A stretch of DNA of 64,000 nucleotides from Arcobacter venerupis (GTDB taxonomy: Bacteria > Campylobacterota > Campylobacteria > Campylobacterales > Arcobacteraceae). The stretch is taken from NCBI RefSeq assembly GCF_013201665.1, contig NZ_CP053840.1, positions 2,914,001 to 2,978,000 of the forward strand, written 5' to 3'. The notes below the pieces were generated by a model that saw nothing but the letters and a program-made list of their open reading frames with translations, made no database searches and was not told where the DNA came from. This document shows positions 7,237 to 42,570 of the stretch, one piece after another; the first letter of the stretch is position 1, and each line of letters begins with the position of its first letter. The translations under genes and the position numbers were made by a program.

Positions 7237-8673
7237 ATGAACAAAATTGTAAAAAATAATCTTGATGAAATAATTCTTATTTTATTTATTCTTATAATTT
7301 CACCAATCTTAATTAATTTAAATATGTTTGAGGTTATTTATGAAATTACTCGTTCAAATGAAGAATATGAATTAGATGAATTATTTATTGTTTTTATATC
7401 AATATTATTAGGATTATCATTATATTCATTTAAAAAATTCAAAGATTTAGAAAAAACAAGAAAAGAAATAATTACTATTAATGAGACAGACTCCCTTACT
7501 AAATTAAAAAATAGAAATGCCTTTTTAACACATGATGAATATGAATATAGATATGTTGTTTTATTAAATATAATAGACTTTTCTGTTTTTAATAAATATT
7601 TAGGCTTTAAAAAAGCAGATAAACTTTTGATTCAAGTATCAAATCAACTTCAAGATATTATAAAAGAAAATACAAATCAAGCTCTTTTTAGAATATATGG
7701 AGATGAATTTGCGTTTTATTGTAATGATAATAATATAAATGAATTACTAAAAAAAATTAAACTAAAATTTGAAGAAAAGAATTTTACTTTAGATAAATAT
7801 AAATTTACAATTCATTTAAATATTTCATACTCAGATACTGCACCTAAATATCTAACTGCATTATCAGCATTACGTTTTACTAGAAACTCTATTCATAAAA
7901 GTATTTATAAATATACTGAAAATAATGATTTAAAATCTAATTCTCTTAAGATGCTTCAAATTTTAGAAAAAGGTTTTAAAGAAAGAAAAGTTATTCCAGT
8001 TTATCAAGCTATTTATGATAATAAATCAAAATCTATTTATAAATATGAATCATTAGTTAGAATAAAACAAAAAAAGAATTTGATAAGTCCTTGGGAATTT
8101 ATTGATGTAGCAAAAAAATTTAAAATCTATCACAAAATTACAAAAAATATAATTCAACAAACATTTGAAGATTTTGAAAATATAACAGATGAATTTTCAA
8201 TCAACTTATCTTATATTGACATCATCAATATAAATACAAATAAATACATATTTAAAATGCTTAGTTTATATCCTGATGTAGCAAAACGATTAACTATTGA
8301 GTTTTTAGAAACAGAGAATATTGAAAACTATGAGTTTTTATTAGAATTTACAAAAAAAGTAAGAGAATTTGGCACAAAAATTGCTCTTGATGATTTTGGA
8401 ACTGGTTATTCAAACTGGAATAATATATTAAAACTCAAACCAGATTATATAAAAATAGATGGTAGTTTAATTCAAAATTTGATTAATAATCAAGCAAATA
8501 TTAATCTAATTAAACTAATAGTTGAGTTTGCTAAAATAAACAATATCAAAACTATTGCAGAGTTTGTTGATAATGAAAAGTTAGCTGAGTTAATAACTAA
8601 TTTAGGTATAGATTATTCACAAGGTTATTTATATGCTGAACCAAAAGAGAAAAATCTAATTTGGAATAATTAA
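7237..8673 (+). CDS. Membrane GGDEF-EAL protein, probable c-di-GMP phosphodiesterase
   Basis: Two N-terminal membrane segments (about residues 10-30 and 48-65) precede a GGDEF and an EAL domain. The GGDEF motif reads YGDEF (154-158), and the metal-binding DxD of active cyclases is replaced by the N-I-I of NIIDF, so cyclase activity is doubtful. The EAL domain keeps the residues expected of an active phosphodiesterase: YESLVR, INLSY, EFLETE, DDFGTGYS, KIDGSL, AEF and QGYLYAEP. Expected action is hydrolysis of cyclic di-GMP at the inner membrane. The spacing from GGAG to ATG is long (12 bases). It converges with the gene at 8683-9771. Confidence 0.85.
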   Translation: MNKIVKNNLDEIILILFILIISPILINLNMFEVIYEITRSNEEYELDELFIVFISILLGLSLYSFKKFKDLEKTRKEIITINETDSLTKLKNRNAFLTHDEYEYRYVVLLNIIDFSVFNKYLGFKKADKLLIQVSNQLQDIIKENTNQALFRIYGDEFAFYCNDNNINELLKKIKLKFEEKNFTLDKYKFTIHLNISYSDTAPKYLTALSALRFTRNSIHKSIYKYTENNDLKSNSLKMLQILEKGFKERKVIPVYQAIYDNKSKSIYKYESLVRIKQKKNLISPWEFIDVAKKFKIYHKITKNIIQQTFEDFENITDEFSINLSYIDIININTNKYIFKMLSLYPDVAKRLTIEFLETENIENYEFLLEFTKKVREFGTKIALDDFGTGYSNWNNILKLKPDYIKIDGSLIQNLINNQANINLIKLIVEFAKINNIKTIAEFVDNEKLAELITNLGIDYSQGYLYAEPKEKNLIWNN

Positions 8674-15217: not shown

Positions 15218-17263
15218 TCAGAAAATATTAGTTTTAGGCTCAGCTAAATAAAATCCCTGAAATTCATTAATTCCTAATTCTAAAAGTAAATCAAATACTT
15301 CAGATGAATGCACAAATTCTGCAATAGTTGTTATATTTAAAGCTTTTGAGAAATCAACAACTGATTTTACCATTTCATAAGAGTTTTTATCTGTATTAAT
15401 GTTTTTAATTAAAGAACCATCTATTTTTATATAATTTGGTCTAATTTTTAAAATATGAGCAAAATTTGAATATCCCGTACCAAAATCGTCAATTGCTATT
15501 TTTATACCTTGATTTCTGTATTTGTTAATAAAATCTTCAAGTAAAGTATAGTCTGAAATATAATCGCTTTCTAATATTTCAAATACTAATCTTTGTTTAT
15601 GAATATTTTCAAGTTTATCTAAGCTTTTATCTAGAGAAACAATAAATTCACTATCTAAAATATCTTTAAAACTTAAGTTAATAGAAATTTGTTTATCAGT
15701 TTTTATTAAATCATTTAAGGCTTTTGAAATTACTTGATTTGACAGTTGCAAATACTGTTTTGTTTTAACTGAAATATCCAAAAATAAATATGGACTTATA
15801 TATGTAATTTCACCTTTTTCATTAACATCTTCTATTCTCATTAGAGTTTCATATTTAACAATATTTTTATTTCTATCAAAAATTGCTTGATAAAATGGCG
15901 TGACTTTACTTTCTTCAATAGCTTTTTTTAATTTCTCTCGCCAATAAATAGATTTTTTTATAATCTCTTTTGTATCAATTTCATTATTATAAACAAAAAA
16001 AGGCATATTATTTTTTTTAGCTTTTTTCAAAGCAATTCCAGCAGTTTTAATTGGTTCTTCTTGAGCTATTGATATACCTAAAGTTATGTTTATAAAAATA
16101 TCAATATCTAGTTGTTCCACATAAATAGGTCTGTTTTTAAAAAGTGTTTCTAATTCTGTAATAAACTCATTATACTTAGCAAAACCCATCATTTTTTTAT
16201 CTGCTAAACAATATACATTTCCATATATTCTATAAACTGAAACACTATATTTTGATGAAAATTCATTTAATATTTTTGCAACTTCAATTAAAACTAAATT
16301 TCCAGTTGAAAAACCATAAAGTTCATTAATATCATCAAAAGCATCAATATCAATTAATGCAATAGATACAAATTCATTATCTTTAATATCATCTTCTAAG
16401 GCATATCTATTTTTTAAACTTGTTAAATCATCATAATATAATCTATTTTGAATCTCTTTTGTTTTTACTTGAACTTGTTCTTCAAAATTCACTCTATTTG
16501 TCTCTACTTGATCAAGTAAAGTATTAAATTGAGTTGCTAAAAAACCTATTTCATCTTTTGTTTTAACTCCATTTTCAAAAGTATTAGAATCTATATTTGC
16601 TTTTTTTACTTCTGAAAACATTTTGTTAATTGGTGTGATAACTTTAATTGTAATAAATATTCCAATTATTGCTAACATACCAAATAAAAGCATTGAAATA
16701 TTTAAAATCAATGAATTAATACCTTGAACATATGAAGAAAAATCTTCTTTATAAACAGATGAAACAACATAACTATCTAGATTTTTGTTATATTCAATCC
16801 AAGACATTTTTGTATATTTATAATTTAAAGGGTCATAAATTTTGTTCCAATTATATTCAAGTACTTCTCTTTTGTTATAACTATTTTTAATTTCATCAAA
16901 CAATTTTTTACCACTTTGAGGTAAAATTGTTGTTAATAAATCTTGATTTTGGAAAGCTCCACTTGGATCAAAAATTATTTTCCCTGAATTATCAACCAAA
17001 TAAATATAACCTGTTTTACCTAATGTAAAACTAGTCAATAAAAGATCAATCTCTTTTTTTAATTCTACTTTATTTTCAATGGTTTTTGATTTATTATTTA
17101 TGATAGAAACAATTTTATCAAATTGTATTTTTGAATTTTCTATTTCAGTTTGAGTTAGATAATTATTTACTTTTGGTGATAAATAAAATACAACAAAAAA
17201 TAAATAAAATAATAAACTTATAATAAATAACCAACCGATTTTTAGAAATATTTTATTATTCAT
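15218..17263 (-). CDS. Cache-HAMP-GGDEF-EAL protein, probable c-di-GMP phosphodiesterase
   Basis: One membrane segment near residues 8-28 and another near 180-205 enclose a periplasmic Cache-type sensor (YIYLVDNSGKIIFDPSG is typical). A HAMP-like linker, GGDEF and EAL domains follow. The GGDEF signature is lost (YGNVY), although the IDIDAFDDIN metal region remains, so no cyclase activity is expected. The EAL domain is complete: YETLMR, INLSF, FEILESD, DDFGTGYSN, KIDGSL, AEF, FQGFYLAEP. It should hydrolyse cyclic di-GMP in response to a small external ligand. It ends 47 bases from the upstream end of the small gene at 14941. Confidence 0.87.
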   Translation of the reverse strand: MNNKIFLKIGWLFIISLLFYLFFVVFYLSPKVNNYLTQTEIENSKIQFDKIVSIINNKSKTIENKVELKKEIDLLLTSFTLGKTGYIYLVDNSGKIIFDPSGAFQNQDLLTTILPQSGKKLFDEIKNSYNKREVLEYNWNKIYDPLNYKYTKMSWIEYNKNLDSYVVSSVYKEDFSSYVQGINSLILNISMLLFGMLAIIGIFITIKVITPINKMFSEVKKANIDSNTFENGVKTKDEIGFLATQFNTLLDQVETNRVNFEEQVQVKTKEIQNRLYYDDLTSLKNRYALEDDIKDNEFVSIALIDIDAFDDINELYGFSTGNLVLIEVAKILNEFSSKYSVSVYRIYGNVYCLADKKMMGFAKYNEFITELETLFKNRPIYVEQLDIDIFINITLGISIAQEEPIKTAGIALKKAKKNNMPFFVYNNEIDTKEIIKKSIYWREKLKKAIEESKVTPFYQAIFDRNKNIVKYETLMRIEDVNEKGEITYISPYLFLDISVKTKQYLQLSNQVISKALNDLIKTDKQISINLSFKDILDSEFIVSLDKSLDKLENIHKQRLVFEILESDYISDYTLLEDFINKYRNQGIKIAIDDFGTGYSNFAHILKIRPNYIKIDGSLIKNINTDKNSYEMVKSVVDFSKALNITTIAEFVHSSEVFDLLLELGINEFQGFYLAEPKTNIF

Positions 17264-40394: not shown

Positions 40395-41519
40395 ATGAAC
40401 TGCAAATATTTTGGAATGTGTGCGTCATGTACACTTTTTGATAAATCATATGATGAACAACTCACATTTAAATTAGAACGAGAAAAAGAGAGATTTTCAA
40501 ACTTTACAACTATGGATTTTGATCTTATTAAAAGTAGTGATAAAAACTTTAGAAATCGTGCAGAATTTAGAATTTGGTGGGAGAAAGATGAAAATGGAGA
40601 TGAAATTTTATCATATGCAATGAATGATTTTAAAAAAGATATTTTAAAAATAGATTCATGTCAAATTGTAAGTGCTCATATACAAGAGATTATGCCAAAA
40701 CTTTTAGATTTACTTATGGAAGATTTAATCCTTTCTTATAAGCTTTTTTCCGTTGAATTTTTAGGAAGTACCACAAACGATATGCTTGTAACTTTGATTT
40801 ATCATAAAAAATTAGATGAACAATGGAATGAATTAGCAAAACAAATTGAAGAGAAATTAAATATCAAAGTTATGGGAAGAAGTAGAAAACAAAAAATCGC
40901 TCTTAGTAGTGACTCTATAAATGAAACATTAACTATAAATAATCAAGAATTCAAATTTGCCTATCAAGAAGGTGGATTTACTCAACCAAATACAAATGTA
41001 AATATCCAAATGATTGAATGGGTTTTAAATAATATTGAAGACTCTTCAAAAGATTTATGTGAACTTTACTGTGGTGGTGGAAATTTTACAATTCCATTAT
41101 CAACTAAGTTCAATAAAGTTTTAGCAACTGAAATTTCAAAAACATCTATTAAATCAGCTTTAAACAATTGTGATTTAAACAATACAAATAAGATAACATT
41201 TTTAAGAATGAGTGCAGAAGAGTTTGTGCAAGGACTTCAAGAAGTACGAACATTCAATAGACTTAAAGACATAAATCTAAAAGATTATAACTTTGATGCC
41301 ATATTTATGGATCCACCAAGATCTGGACTTGATAATACAACAAGAAATTTGGCAAAAGATTTTGAAAATATTATATACATTTCATGTAATCCTGAAACAT
41401 TACATAGAGATTTAGAAGAGTTAACAAAAACCCATGAAATCGTACGATTTGCACTGTTTGATCAATTCGCATATACAAATCATATAGAAAGTGGAGTAAT
41501 TCTAAAAATGATTAGATAA
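40395..41519 (+). CDS. trmA: tRNA (uracil-5-)-methyltransferase TrmA
   Basis: TrmA makes ribothymidine 54 in tRNA with S-adenosylmethionine. The start MNCKYFGMCASCTLFDKSYDEQ matches the Campylobacterota form. The SAM motif DLCELYCGGGNFTIPLS, the DPPRSGLD motif and the nucleophile region YISCNPETLHRDL (catalytic Cys) are intact. Length (374 aa) is normal. AAAGG lies seven bases before the ATG. It is divergent from the helicase gene and ends in a small terminator. A TrmA-like 23S rRNA methylase is a less likely alternative. Confidence 0.93.
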   Translation: MNCKYFGMCASCTLFDKSYDEQLTFKLEREKERFSNFTTMDFDLIKSSDKNFRNRAEFRIWWEKDENGDEILSYAMNDFKKDILKIDSCQIVSAHIQEIMPKLLDLLMEDLILSYKLFSVEFLGSTTNDMLVTLIYHKKLDEQWNELAKQIEEKLNIKVMGRSRKQKIALSSDSINETLTINNQEFKFAYQEGGFTQPNTNVNIQMIEWVLNNIEDSSKDLCELYCGGGNFTIPLSTKFNKVLATEISKTSIKSALNNCDLNNTNKITFLRMSAEEFVQGLQEVRTFNRLKDINLKDYNFDAIFMDPPRSGLDNTTRNLAKDFENIIYISCNPETLHRDLEELTKTHEIVRFALFDQFAYTNHIESGVILKMIR

Positions 41520-41530
41520 TTTAATCTAAT
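41511..41530 (+). terminator. Terminator after trmA
   Basis: A 7-base-pair stem (41511-41517 with 41524-41530) with a 6-base loop is followed by TTTAAG. It overlaps the trmA stop codon. It is AT-rich, so moderate. Confidence 0.5.
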
Positions 41531-41558
41531 TTTAAGAAATGGTGTGCAATAATTTCAA

Positions 41559-41564
41559 TATAAA
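41559..41564 (+). promoter_or_regulatory. Probable flagellin promoter -10
   Basis: TATAAA followed by GATTAGGG places a start near 41570-41571. No sigma28-type (TAAA-N15-GCCGATAA) or sigma54-type (GG-N10-GC) signature is seen in the region, so a housekeeping-type promoter is the better reading. Confidence 0.45.
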
Positions 41565-41569
41565 GATTA

Positions 41570-41692
41570 GGGACCAATGGGTTCCGAAGAGAAGAAAAAC
41601 TTTTCCTCTCTATGCTTGGGACTTGAAAAAGAAACAAGAAGGTCACCGGCTGTGAGTCAAATCACAATGTGTCATATTAAAAAGGATTTATT
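41570..41692 (+). ncRNA. Structured leader of the flagellin mRNA (candidate cis-regulatory RNA)
   Basis: This 123-base leader is visibly richer in G and C than its surroundings and folds into successive hairpins. Stem 1 pairs 41570-41575 with 41580-41585 (loop AATG). Stem 2 pairs 41588-41598 with 41601-41611 with one mismatch. A third helix joins GG-GAC-TTG (41618-41625) to CAA, GTC and CC (41635-41647) with internal loops. Stem 4 pairs 41651-41655 with 41662-41666. The ribosome-binding site AAAAAGGATTT follows. I do not recognise a known riboswitch class. An open 39-codon frame also spans it. Function is inferred from structure and position. Confidence 0.5.
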
Positions 41693-42517
41693 ATGAGAAT
41701 CAATACAAACGTTTCATCTTTAACAGCTCAAGAAGCTGCACAAAATACAAGTAAAACTTTAACTTCTTCATTAGAAAAGTTATCAACAGGTTTAAGAATT
41801 AATAAAGCTTCTGATGATGCTTCTGGTTTAGCAATTGCTGATAAACTAAGAACTCAAGCAACTTCTATTAATCAAGGTATTGCAAATGGTAATTCAGCTG
41901 TAACTTTACTTCAAATTGCTGATAAATCTATGGCTGAGCAATCAAACATTCTTGATACTGTTAAAGCGAAACTAATTCAAGCAAATACAGCAACTACATC
42001 AACTGATGGTAGAAAAGCTATTGCATCTGATGTTGCTAAATTAATGACTCAGTTTGATAATATTGCTAAATCTACTAACTATAATGGTACAGATTTGATA
42101 TCTTCAAGTGCTAAAGCTTTAGATTTCCAAGTTGGAGAAGATGCAACAAAAGGTAAAATTACGTTATCTAAAGTAAATTCATCAGCATCAGCTTATGGTT
42201 TAAGTTCATTGACTAGTATAACATCTCTTGGAATGGCTTCAGCTGCAACTTTACAATCAACAGTAGATACTGCAATTAACACTCTAAATACAAATAGAGG
42301 GTCAATAGGGTCTACTCAAAATCAAGTTGAGTCTGCGGTAAGAAACTTAATGACAATGGCAACAAATGTTAAATCTGCTGAGTCAATCATCAGAGATGTT
42401 GATTATGCACAAGAATCAGCAAACTATAACAAACAGAACATTATTTCTCAAGCTGGTTCTTATGCAATCAGTCAAGCGAACTCTGTTCAACAAAATGTAT
42501 TAAAATTATTACAATAG
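41693..42517 (+). CDS. fla: Flagellin
   Basis: This filament subunit has 274 residues, much shorter than Campylobacter flagellins, as is usual for Arcobacter. The conserved N-terminal D0/D1 helices (RINTNVSSLTAQEAAQNTSK; LSTGLRINKASDDASGLAIA) and C-terminal helix (AESIIRDVDYAQESANYNKQ; SQANSVQQNVLKLLQ) enclose a tiny variable part. The D1 stretch SNILDTVKAKLIQA differs from the TLR5-recognised sequence of enteric flagellins, as in other Campylobacterota. Ser and Thr are abundant around residues 95-190, offering sites for the Maf glycosyltransferases encoded next door. A strong terminator follows. flaA versus flaB cannot be decided. Confidence 0.96.
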   Translation: MRINTNVSSLTAQEAAQNTSKTLTSSLEKLSTGLRINKASDDASGLAIADKLRTQATSINQGIANGNSAVTLLQIADKSMAEQSNILDTVKAKLIQANTATTSTDGRKAIASDVAKLMTQFDNIAKSTNYNGTDLISSSAKALDFQVGEDATKGKITLSKVNSSASAYGLSSLTSITSLGMASAATLQSTVDTAINTLNTNRGSIGSTQNQVESAVRNLMTMATNVKSAESIIRDVDYAQESANYNKQNIISQAGSYAISQANSVQQNVLKLLQ

Positions 42518-42537: not shown

Positions 42538-42570
42538 AAAGGGCTTAGATTTTATCTAAGCCCTTTTTTT
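42538..42570 (+). terminator. Strong intrinsic terminator after flagellin
   Basis: A 13-base-pair stem (42538-42550 with 42554-42566) has a 3-base loop and runs into seven T (42564-42570). The stop codon of the convergent maf gene lies in the stem. Confidence 0.92.

Follow-up and report, generated by a model that had tools for sequence, protein, structure and literature searches.

How is flagellin synthesis controlled in Arcobacter venerupis, and does the leader of its flagellin mRNA take part? We analysed a 64,000-nt stretch of contig NZ_CP053840.1 (positions 2,914,001 to 2,978,000 of the single-contig genome G000; hereafter the window), in which a flagellin gene lies between a tRNA (uracil-5-)-methyltransferase gene upstream and two Maf-type genes downstream (Table 1). 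An initial annotation, made from the sequence alone, had proposed that the 123 nt before the start codon (41570-41692) form a GC-richer, multi-hairpin leader and a candidate new regulatory RNA.

Leader and promoter region of the flagellin gene

The annotated enrichment was borne out: the GC content of the leader is 0.39 compared with 0.267 for the window, which exceeds 97.9% of 123-nt windows (top 2.1%). With ORFs of at least 100 aa taken as genes, 41520-41692 has the highest GC content among the 18 intergenic stretches that are 60 nt or longer. The leader folds with an MFE of -30.6 kcal/mol (z -2.36), and one of 200 dinucleotide shuffles was as stable. Of the four stems annotated, P1, P2 and P4 stand as drawn and the third is a different one. 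The single-sequence MFE of the window draws another third stem than CUUG/CAAG (P3), which we prefer because the evidence from the family presented below favours it. The leader had also been described as ending before the ribosome-binding site, which is incorrect: the Shine-Dalgarno sequence falls within it, and a fifth predicted hairpin (P5), unlisted in that annotation, extends beyond the ribosome-binding site and includes the start codon.

Table 1 Features of the flagellin leader region, in window coordinates.
Feature	Coordinates	Strand	Basis
Upstream box TTTAATCTAATTTTAAGAAATG, 22 nt	41520..41541	+	Exact second copy before flgK; upstream regions of relatives
Extended -10-like TGC-AATAAT	41545..41553	+	Sequence reading and recurrence in relatives
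P1 hairpin GGGACC-AAUG-GGUUCC	41570..41585 (41570-41575/41580-41585)	+	Compensatory changes in 4/6 pairs
P2 hairpin AGAGA...UCUCU	41588..41611 (41588-41592/41607-41611)	+	Compensatory changes in 5/5 pairs; loop length varies
AUGCU running into P3	41612..41616	+	Invariant columns, 81 aligned leaders
P3 hairpin CUUG...CAAG	41615..41638 (41615-41618/41635-41638)	+	100% of cells paired; loop length varies
AGAA(N)GU 3' of P3	41637..41643	+	AGAA invariant, GU at least 90% (81 aligned leaders)
P4 hairpin UGUGA...UCACA	41651..41666 (41651-41655/41662-41666)	+	Covariation in type A leaders
P5 predicted hairpin, start codon closed, Shine-Dalgarno in loop	41672..41696	+	Folding prediction; start codon fixed
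Shine-Dalgarno AAGGA	41682..41686	+	Position and conservation
Flagellin gene, 274 aa	41693..42517	+	Flagellin_N and Flagellin_C domains
Intrinsic terminator-like hairpin 3' of flagellin	42538..42566	+	13-bp stem, then T run; consensus match

A search of the window's own genome for the upstream box, allowing up to 3 mismatches, returned five sites (one for the reversed pattern, used as a control). Two are exact, before flagellin and before flgK (G000:C1:347066-347087; gene named by eye), and sites with 2 mismatches at G000:C1:1254233 and 1983806 lie, by eye, before a CheB/CheR-like ORF (195 nt off) and an uncharacterised ORF. No GG-N10-GC, sigma28-like or GCCGATAA-like -10 match is present in 41461-41700, and none of 104 Arcobacteraceae genomes has a match to the FliA model (TIGR02479) above cut-off; weaker matches to that model occur in 103 of the 104, the best nearly all in frames of ~600 aa, which are probably RpoD. 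The annotated lack of a sigma28 or sigma54 signature thus holds in 41461-41700, but the accompanying assignment to a plain housekeeping promoter does not, given the 22-mer common to flgK. The placement of the box suggests a possible late-flagellar promoter element independent of FliA. From the extended -10-like element, the transcript is predicted to start near 41560.

A conserved core confined to the Arcobacteraceae

In many relatives a 181-nt query aligned along the greater part of its length with identities of 66-92%, and relatives of the flagellin come from records named Aliarcobacter, Arcobacter, Halarcobacter and Poseidonibacter, among others. We aligned 81 of 89 distinct leaders with MAFFT, blind to structure. 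RNAalifold draws exactly three hairpins on this alignment, P1-P3, with 15 pairs, 11 of them with double changes. These pairs form in 97.2% of cells, and pairing falls to 34-48% when the partners are shifted by 1-3 columns. The covariation score is 0.413 compared with 0.152 in shuffled alignments and was reached by none of 500 shuffles; both sides are changed in 154 cells compared with 34 in shuffles. At least as many doubly changed pairs (11) arose in 11 of 500 shuffles. The P1 loop in relatives is mostly RAUK, and in P3 two of the four pairs show compensatory changes and the remaining two are invariant.

Noise was high in an earlier covariation run that pooled both platform types (see below): true pairs were interspersed with non-structural ones from the 3' half, and 0 to 3.7 false pairs were estimated for the nine best of P1-P3. 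We therefore restricted the repeat analysis to the 5' half or to type A leaders, against a tree-based null of our own construction. The nine top column pairs of the 5' half all fall in P1-P3, three of them in P1, with an estimated 0 to 0.2 false pairs each. Pairs 8-19 and 24-50 of P1 and P2 did not stand out in this null (2.8 and 5.2 false pairs estimated), nor did any pseudoknot in the aligned leaders exceed it. P4 is less general: 68.4% of its cells pair over all 81 leaders, and in 49 type A leaders covariation is clear for one of its pairs (estimated 0.025 false pairs) and weak for two more. Lineages other than type A have a CCC/GGG hairpin in its place, and the type B sequence and register differ there. 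The compensating changes that the initial annotation had looked to relatives for are therefore found in P1, P2 and P3, and more weakly, in the majority type only, in P4.

To map the distribution of the core we built a covariance model from 73 of the 81 leaders and took matches of at least 33.8 bits as strong. Strong matches occur in 76 of the 104 Arcobacteraceae genomes; each of these 76 also has a flagellin match, as do 92 of the 104 in total. Across 397 sampled Campylobacterota genomes the strong matches are restricted to the Arcobacteraceae; the best match outside the family (31.6 bits) lies inside an ORF. Twelve weak matches (<33.8 bits) were examined and set aside, ten lying within same-strand ORFs, one straddling an ORF start and one overlapping an antisense ORF. 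In 88 fetched, partly overlapping loci the model made 117 matches, of which 113 sit 43-62 nt 5' of a flagellin start. The remaining four comprise one at a contig end just past ATGAGAAT, one before an ORF that by eye looks like flagellin, and two on draft contigs without a clear flagellin start. Scores in these loci are high by construction, because many of the fetched sequences built the model; the placement is unaffected. One metagenome-assembled record that carries the leader, JAKZMJ010000030.1, is titled Sulfurospirillum, a title that is probably wrong, as a contig of equal length (G041:C30) is placed in the Arcobacteraceae.

Searches against Rfam gave no match in the window at the gathering threshold, two chance matches of 14 bits for the leader region alone under relaxed settings, and one chance match of 22.8 bits, away from the leader, in the loci of 12 relatives. 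A search of a plasmid collection returned no match. The leader is thus a conserved structured RNA of one bacterial family, unmatched by Rfam 15, and its covariation and consistent position before flagellin (113/117) are those expected of a cis-regulatory RNA. These findings support the new regulatory RNA first proposed.

Not every flagellin gene has the leader. The fetched loci contain 135 distinct flagellin starts; a simple pattern places the leader before 90 of them and leaves 45 without it. Inspected by eye, many of the latter belong to other paralogues, for instance a copy immediately following the methyltransferase gene, or copies with MKINTN starts. Because these 45 starts are leaderless and 16 of the 92 flagellin-bearing genomes lack a strong match, any gate formed by the leader is not a general one, even among bacteria that have lost CsrA.

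The upstream box precedes 70 of the 117 matches in its strict pattern and 14 more in a looser part, and 33 have neither; by eye many of these 33 are later copies of tandem arrays. One such array (L062; G091:C1:3386300-3399300) has 12 tandem flagellin genes and 11 leaders, with the promoter box present before some copies and absent before others. In another locus (L012:2540-2580) the leader of the second flagellin starts immediately 3' of the terminator-like hairpin behind the first gene, and by eye no promoter box separates the two. There would be no need to keep, at such positions in arrays, a device that matters solely at the 5' end or the promoter; readthrough or processing may nevertheless play a part.

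Predicted closure of translation initiation

Each of the 89 leaders was folded together with 40 nt of coding sequence. In 57 of them, the window's included, UCAUA(AU) pairs with (AU)UAUGA across the start codon (type A), and the mean unpaired probability of the AUG is 0.065; in the window it is 0.02, compared with 0.99 for the Shine-Dalgarno sequence. In 20 others UAAAUCUUUU pairs with AAAAGGAUUUA (type B), and it is the Shine-Dalgarno sequence that is closed, with a mean unpaired probability of 0.07. Twelve leaders match neither pattern (mean for the AUG, 0.27). Over 45-nt upstream contexts the AUG is unpaired with a mean probability of 0.07 in type A leaders (n=54), 0.31 with shuffled upstream sequence and 0.43 in leaderless flagellins (n=45). 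Accessibility of the AUG or the Shine-Dalgarno sequence below 0.2 is predicted for 96% of type A contexts (n=54) and 81% of other leader contexts (n=31), compared with 40% for shuffled upstream sequence, while the 45 leaderless flagellins (27%) resemble their shuffles (30%). The type A leaders are non-independent cases in these comparisons, because the P5 segments are conserved in sequence among related leaders.

One core combined with two unlike ways of closing initiation is the plan expected of a sensor with an interchangeable output. No alternative pairing able to open P5 was found in the leaders. Pairing of AUGC in the core with CAU of P5 was considered and dropped by eye, as it would comprise just 3-4 bp and CAU is absent from type B.

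These predictions are most consistent with a cis-acting gate on flagellin mRNA, a reading we regard as probable, in which a conserved core precedes a platform that differs between lineages, keeps translation initiation closed and is opened or locked by a bound factor. The core would consist of P1-P3 with the fixed AUGCU and AGAA-N-GU. In most lineages, the window's included, the platform hairpin would pair the start codon and leave the Shine-Dalgarno sequence in the loop, and in others it would bury the Shine-Dalgarno sequence. Such occlusion would be expected to reduce translation in cells, making low flagellin translation the default state, and binding of a factor at the core, the presumed sensor, would open the platform (or lock it), so that flagellin would be made only once the cell can use it. 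The factor sensed would more likely be a protein than a metabolite. Control of flagellin at the mRNA level, as had been suggested from the sequence, fits the predicted sequestration of the ribosome-binding site and start codon, and translational control in particular would fit because several leader copies in tandem arrays, as in L062, have no promoter box.

Other readings of the same structures have to be weighed. P1-P3 could be the aptamer of a metabolite riboswitch, for instance for c-di-GMP: a conserved core with interchangeable platforms is the usual riboswitch plan, and the two EAL proteins annotated in the window are indeed present as GGDEF-EAL proteins (7237-8673 and 15218-17263). We nevertheless consider a riboswitch unlikely. 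Rfam models go unmatched in the window and at the leader in the 12 relatives' loci, and known c-di-GMP riboswitch models give no match, in agreement with the initial annotation, which recognised none of their signatures; the stems are short, a pseudoknot signal is absent, and the strong matches lie, with few exceptions, before flagellin genes of one bacterial family. The hairpins might instead only stabilise or process the message, shielding an abundant mRNA or marking cleavage that frees the mRNAs of an array, with no sensing. One hairpin does begin near the predicted 5' end, and tandem flagellin genes are separated by leaders, several of which have no promoter box, yet a plain stabiliser has no need of the invariant unpaired AUGCU and AGAA or of start-codon and Shine-Dalgarno occlusion above the shuffled level, and we judge this reading quite improbable.

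Devices based on an upstream ORF or on temperature appear very improbable. The AUG in the P1 loop of the window begins a frame of 39 codons extending to the flagellin start, and some frame of at least 15 codons from ATG, GTG or TTG is present in 76 of the 89 leaders. However, a P1-loop AUG is present in 48 of the 89 leaders and its frame reaches the flagellin start in 4 of these 48, and leader lengths are distributed across all three frames. Type B hairpins resemble fourU thermometers, which counts in favour of an RNA thermometer, but the predicted occlusion of the AUG or Shine-Dalgarno sequence is nearly constant between 10 and 42 C for types A and B; for the 12 leaders outside these types the predicted AUG accessibility rises from 0.23 to 0.30 over that range.

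Flagellar regulators and a candidate partner

The flaA mRNA leader of Campylobacter jejuni is under CsrA-FliW translational control (PMC4894983), and the Arcobacteraceae leader is like it in several respects: both belong to flagellin mRNAs of the same bacterial order, both have leader hairpins, and in both the Shine-Dalgarno sequence lies in an apical loop that contains GGA. CsrA might bind the AAGGA loop of P5 and be released by FliW, and the GGA in an apical loop over the ribosome-binding site, as in SL2 of flaA (PMC4894983), and the presence of FliW in 66 of the 104 genomes speak for this. Against it, CsrA (PF02599) was detected in none of the 104 genomes, with a model that detects three of 14 controls (E. 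coli, B. subtilis and T. maritima); the window's own genome has no FliW match, nor do 21 of the 76 leader-bearing genomes; and FliW is not associated with the leader (55 with and 21 without FliW among leader-bearing genomes, 9 and 7 among the rest of the flagellin-bearing ones, p 0.24), so that FliW was also set aside as a partner. Where flaA has two GGA hairpins in 45 nt (PMC4894983), the Arcobacteraceae leader is usually ~110-150 nt long with a three-hairpin core and predicted start-codon or Shine-Dalgarno sequestration. The window leader does not expose GGA in two neighbouring loops, as only the P5 loop does so over the ribosome-binding site; a second GGA, within GGGAC of the P3 loop 3' of CUUG, falls in a segment absent from leaders with short P3 loops, and the type B leaders shown have GGA buried in a stem. 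Control by CsrA is accordingly a reading to which we give hardly any credence. FliW itself is retained in these 66 genomes, although its known partner CsrA is found in none.

Other regulators are also missing. Loss of CsrA, FlgM and FlgRS has been reported in an Arcobacter survey (PMC9321776), which also states that RpoN is lost in all Arcobacter. Against the latter statement, a sigma54 DNA-binding domain matches in 33 of the 104 genomes, the window's own among them (163 bits; G000:C1:43193-43651). Sigma54 is not required for the leader, because 51 of the 76 leader-bearing genomes have no such match. In Caulobacter, FlbT and FlaF control flagellin mRNA (PMC3930126); the FlbT family (PF07378) is found in none of the 104 genomes, with a model that detects Caulobacter, which sets the two systems apart. 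The leader-bearing bacteria are without the usual flagellar-assembly switches. The leader would resemble the flaA and Caulobacter leaders in function but, judged by CsrA, GGA and FlbT, is a member of neither group.

Six genomes of one genus have an ORF of ~65 aa between the upstream box and the leader, and matches to this orphan family occur in 81 of the 104 genomes, nearly always in a single place. The family has 24 invariant columns in 27 sequences, and its member in the window's genome has a pI of 9.9. Searches of Pfam and NCBIfam gave no match near cut-off and PHROG none below E 0.03, and among 394 genomes of the phylum strong matches (at least 107 bits) are found solely in the Arcobacteraceae, all others being below 20 bits. 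In the window's genome the gene (65 aa; G000:C1:2986262-2986459, L172:2262-2459) lies ~30.5 kb past the flagellin start, outside the window and upstream of an ORF that reads as recA by eye; this proximity to flagellin could reflect ancient synteny.

Protein and leader occur together in 73 of the 104 genomes, with the leader alone in 3 (drafts of 74-87% completeness), the protein alone in 8 and neither in 20. In flagellin-bearing high-quality genomes the same four counts are 69, 0, 5 and 5 (Fisher p 1.1e-5, uncorrected for shared ancestry), at genus level 14, 1, 1 and 4 (p 0.005), and within g7, a genus comprising both leader-bearing and leaderless genomes, 2, 0, 1 and 5 (p 0.11). AlphaFold2 predicts two helices (mean pLDDT 85.8 from three sequences). 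The fold is uninformative on RNA binding because PDB matches are weak, by sequence a single one with E 0.77 and by fold a best E of 1.1; from charge and context we would guess that the protein binds RNA, which makes it a candidate, unproven partner of the leader. It is possible, though we are doubtful, that Arcobacteraceae without FliA and CsrA have a private flagellin checkpoint, in which this basic, helical protein of ~65-70 aa would bind the core of the leader RNA and switch the platform.

The GC-IGR survey chose 38 intergenic regions of Arcobacter sp. L and left most of the novel ones unnamed as being Arcobacter-confined (PMC6429828). The leader could be among these; 'flagell', 'fliC' and 'flaA' do not occur in the main text of that paper. 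Among the literature matches listed, subscription papers and supplements aside, none describes an Arcobacter leader RNA before flagellin, and an earlier description is possible.

From its predicted platforms, the leader most likely gates flagellin translation. With a defined core, a platform and a candidate partner, it is a concrete target for the open question of how Arcobacter controls its flagella. If the gate proves true, it would be a further bacterial means of restraining flagellin mRNA, beside CsrA-FliW and FlbT-FlaF.
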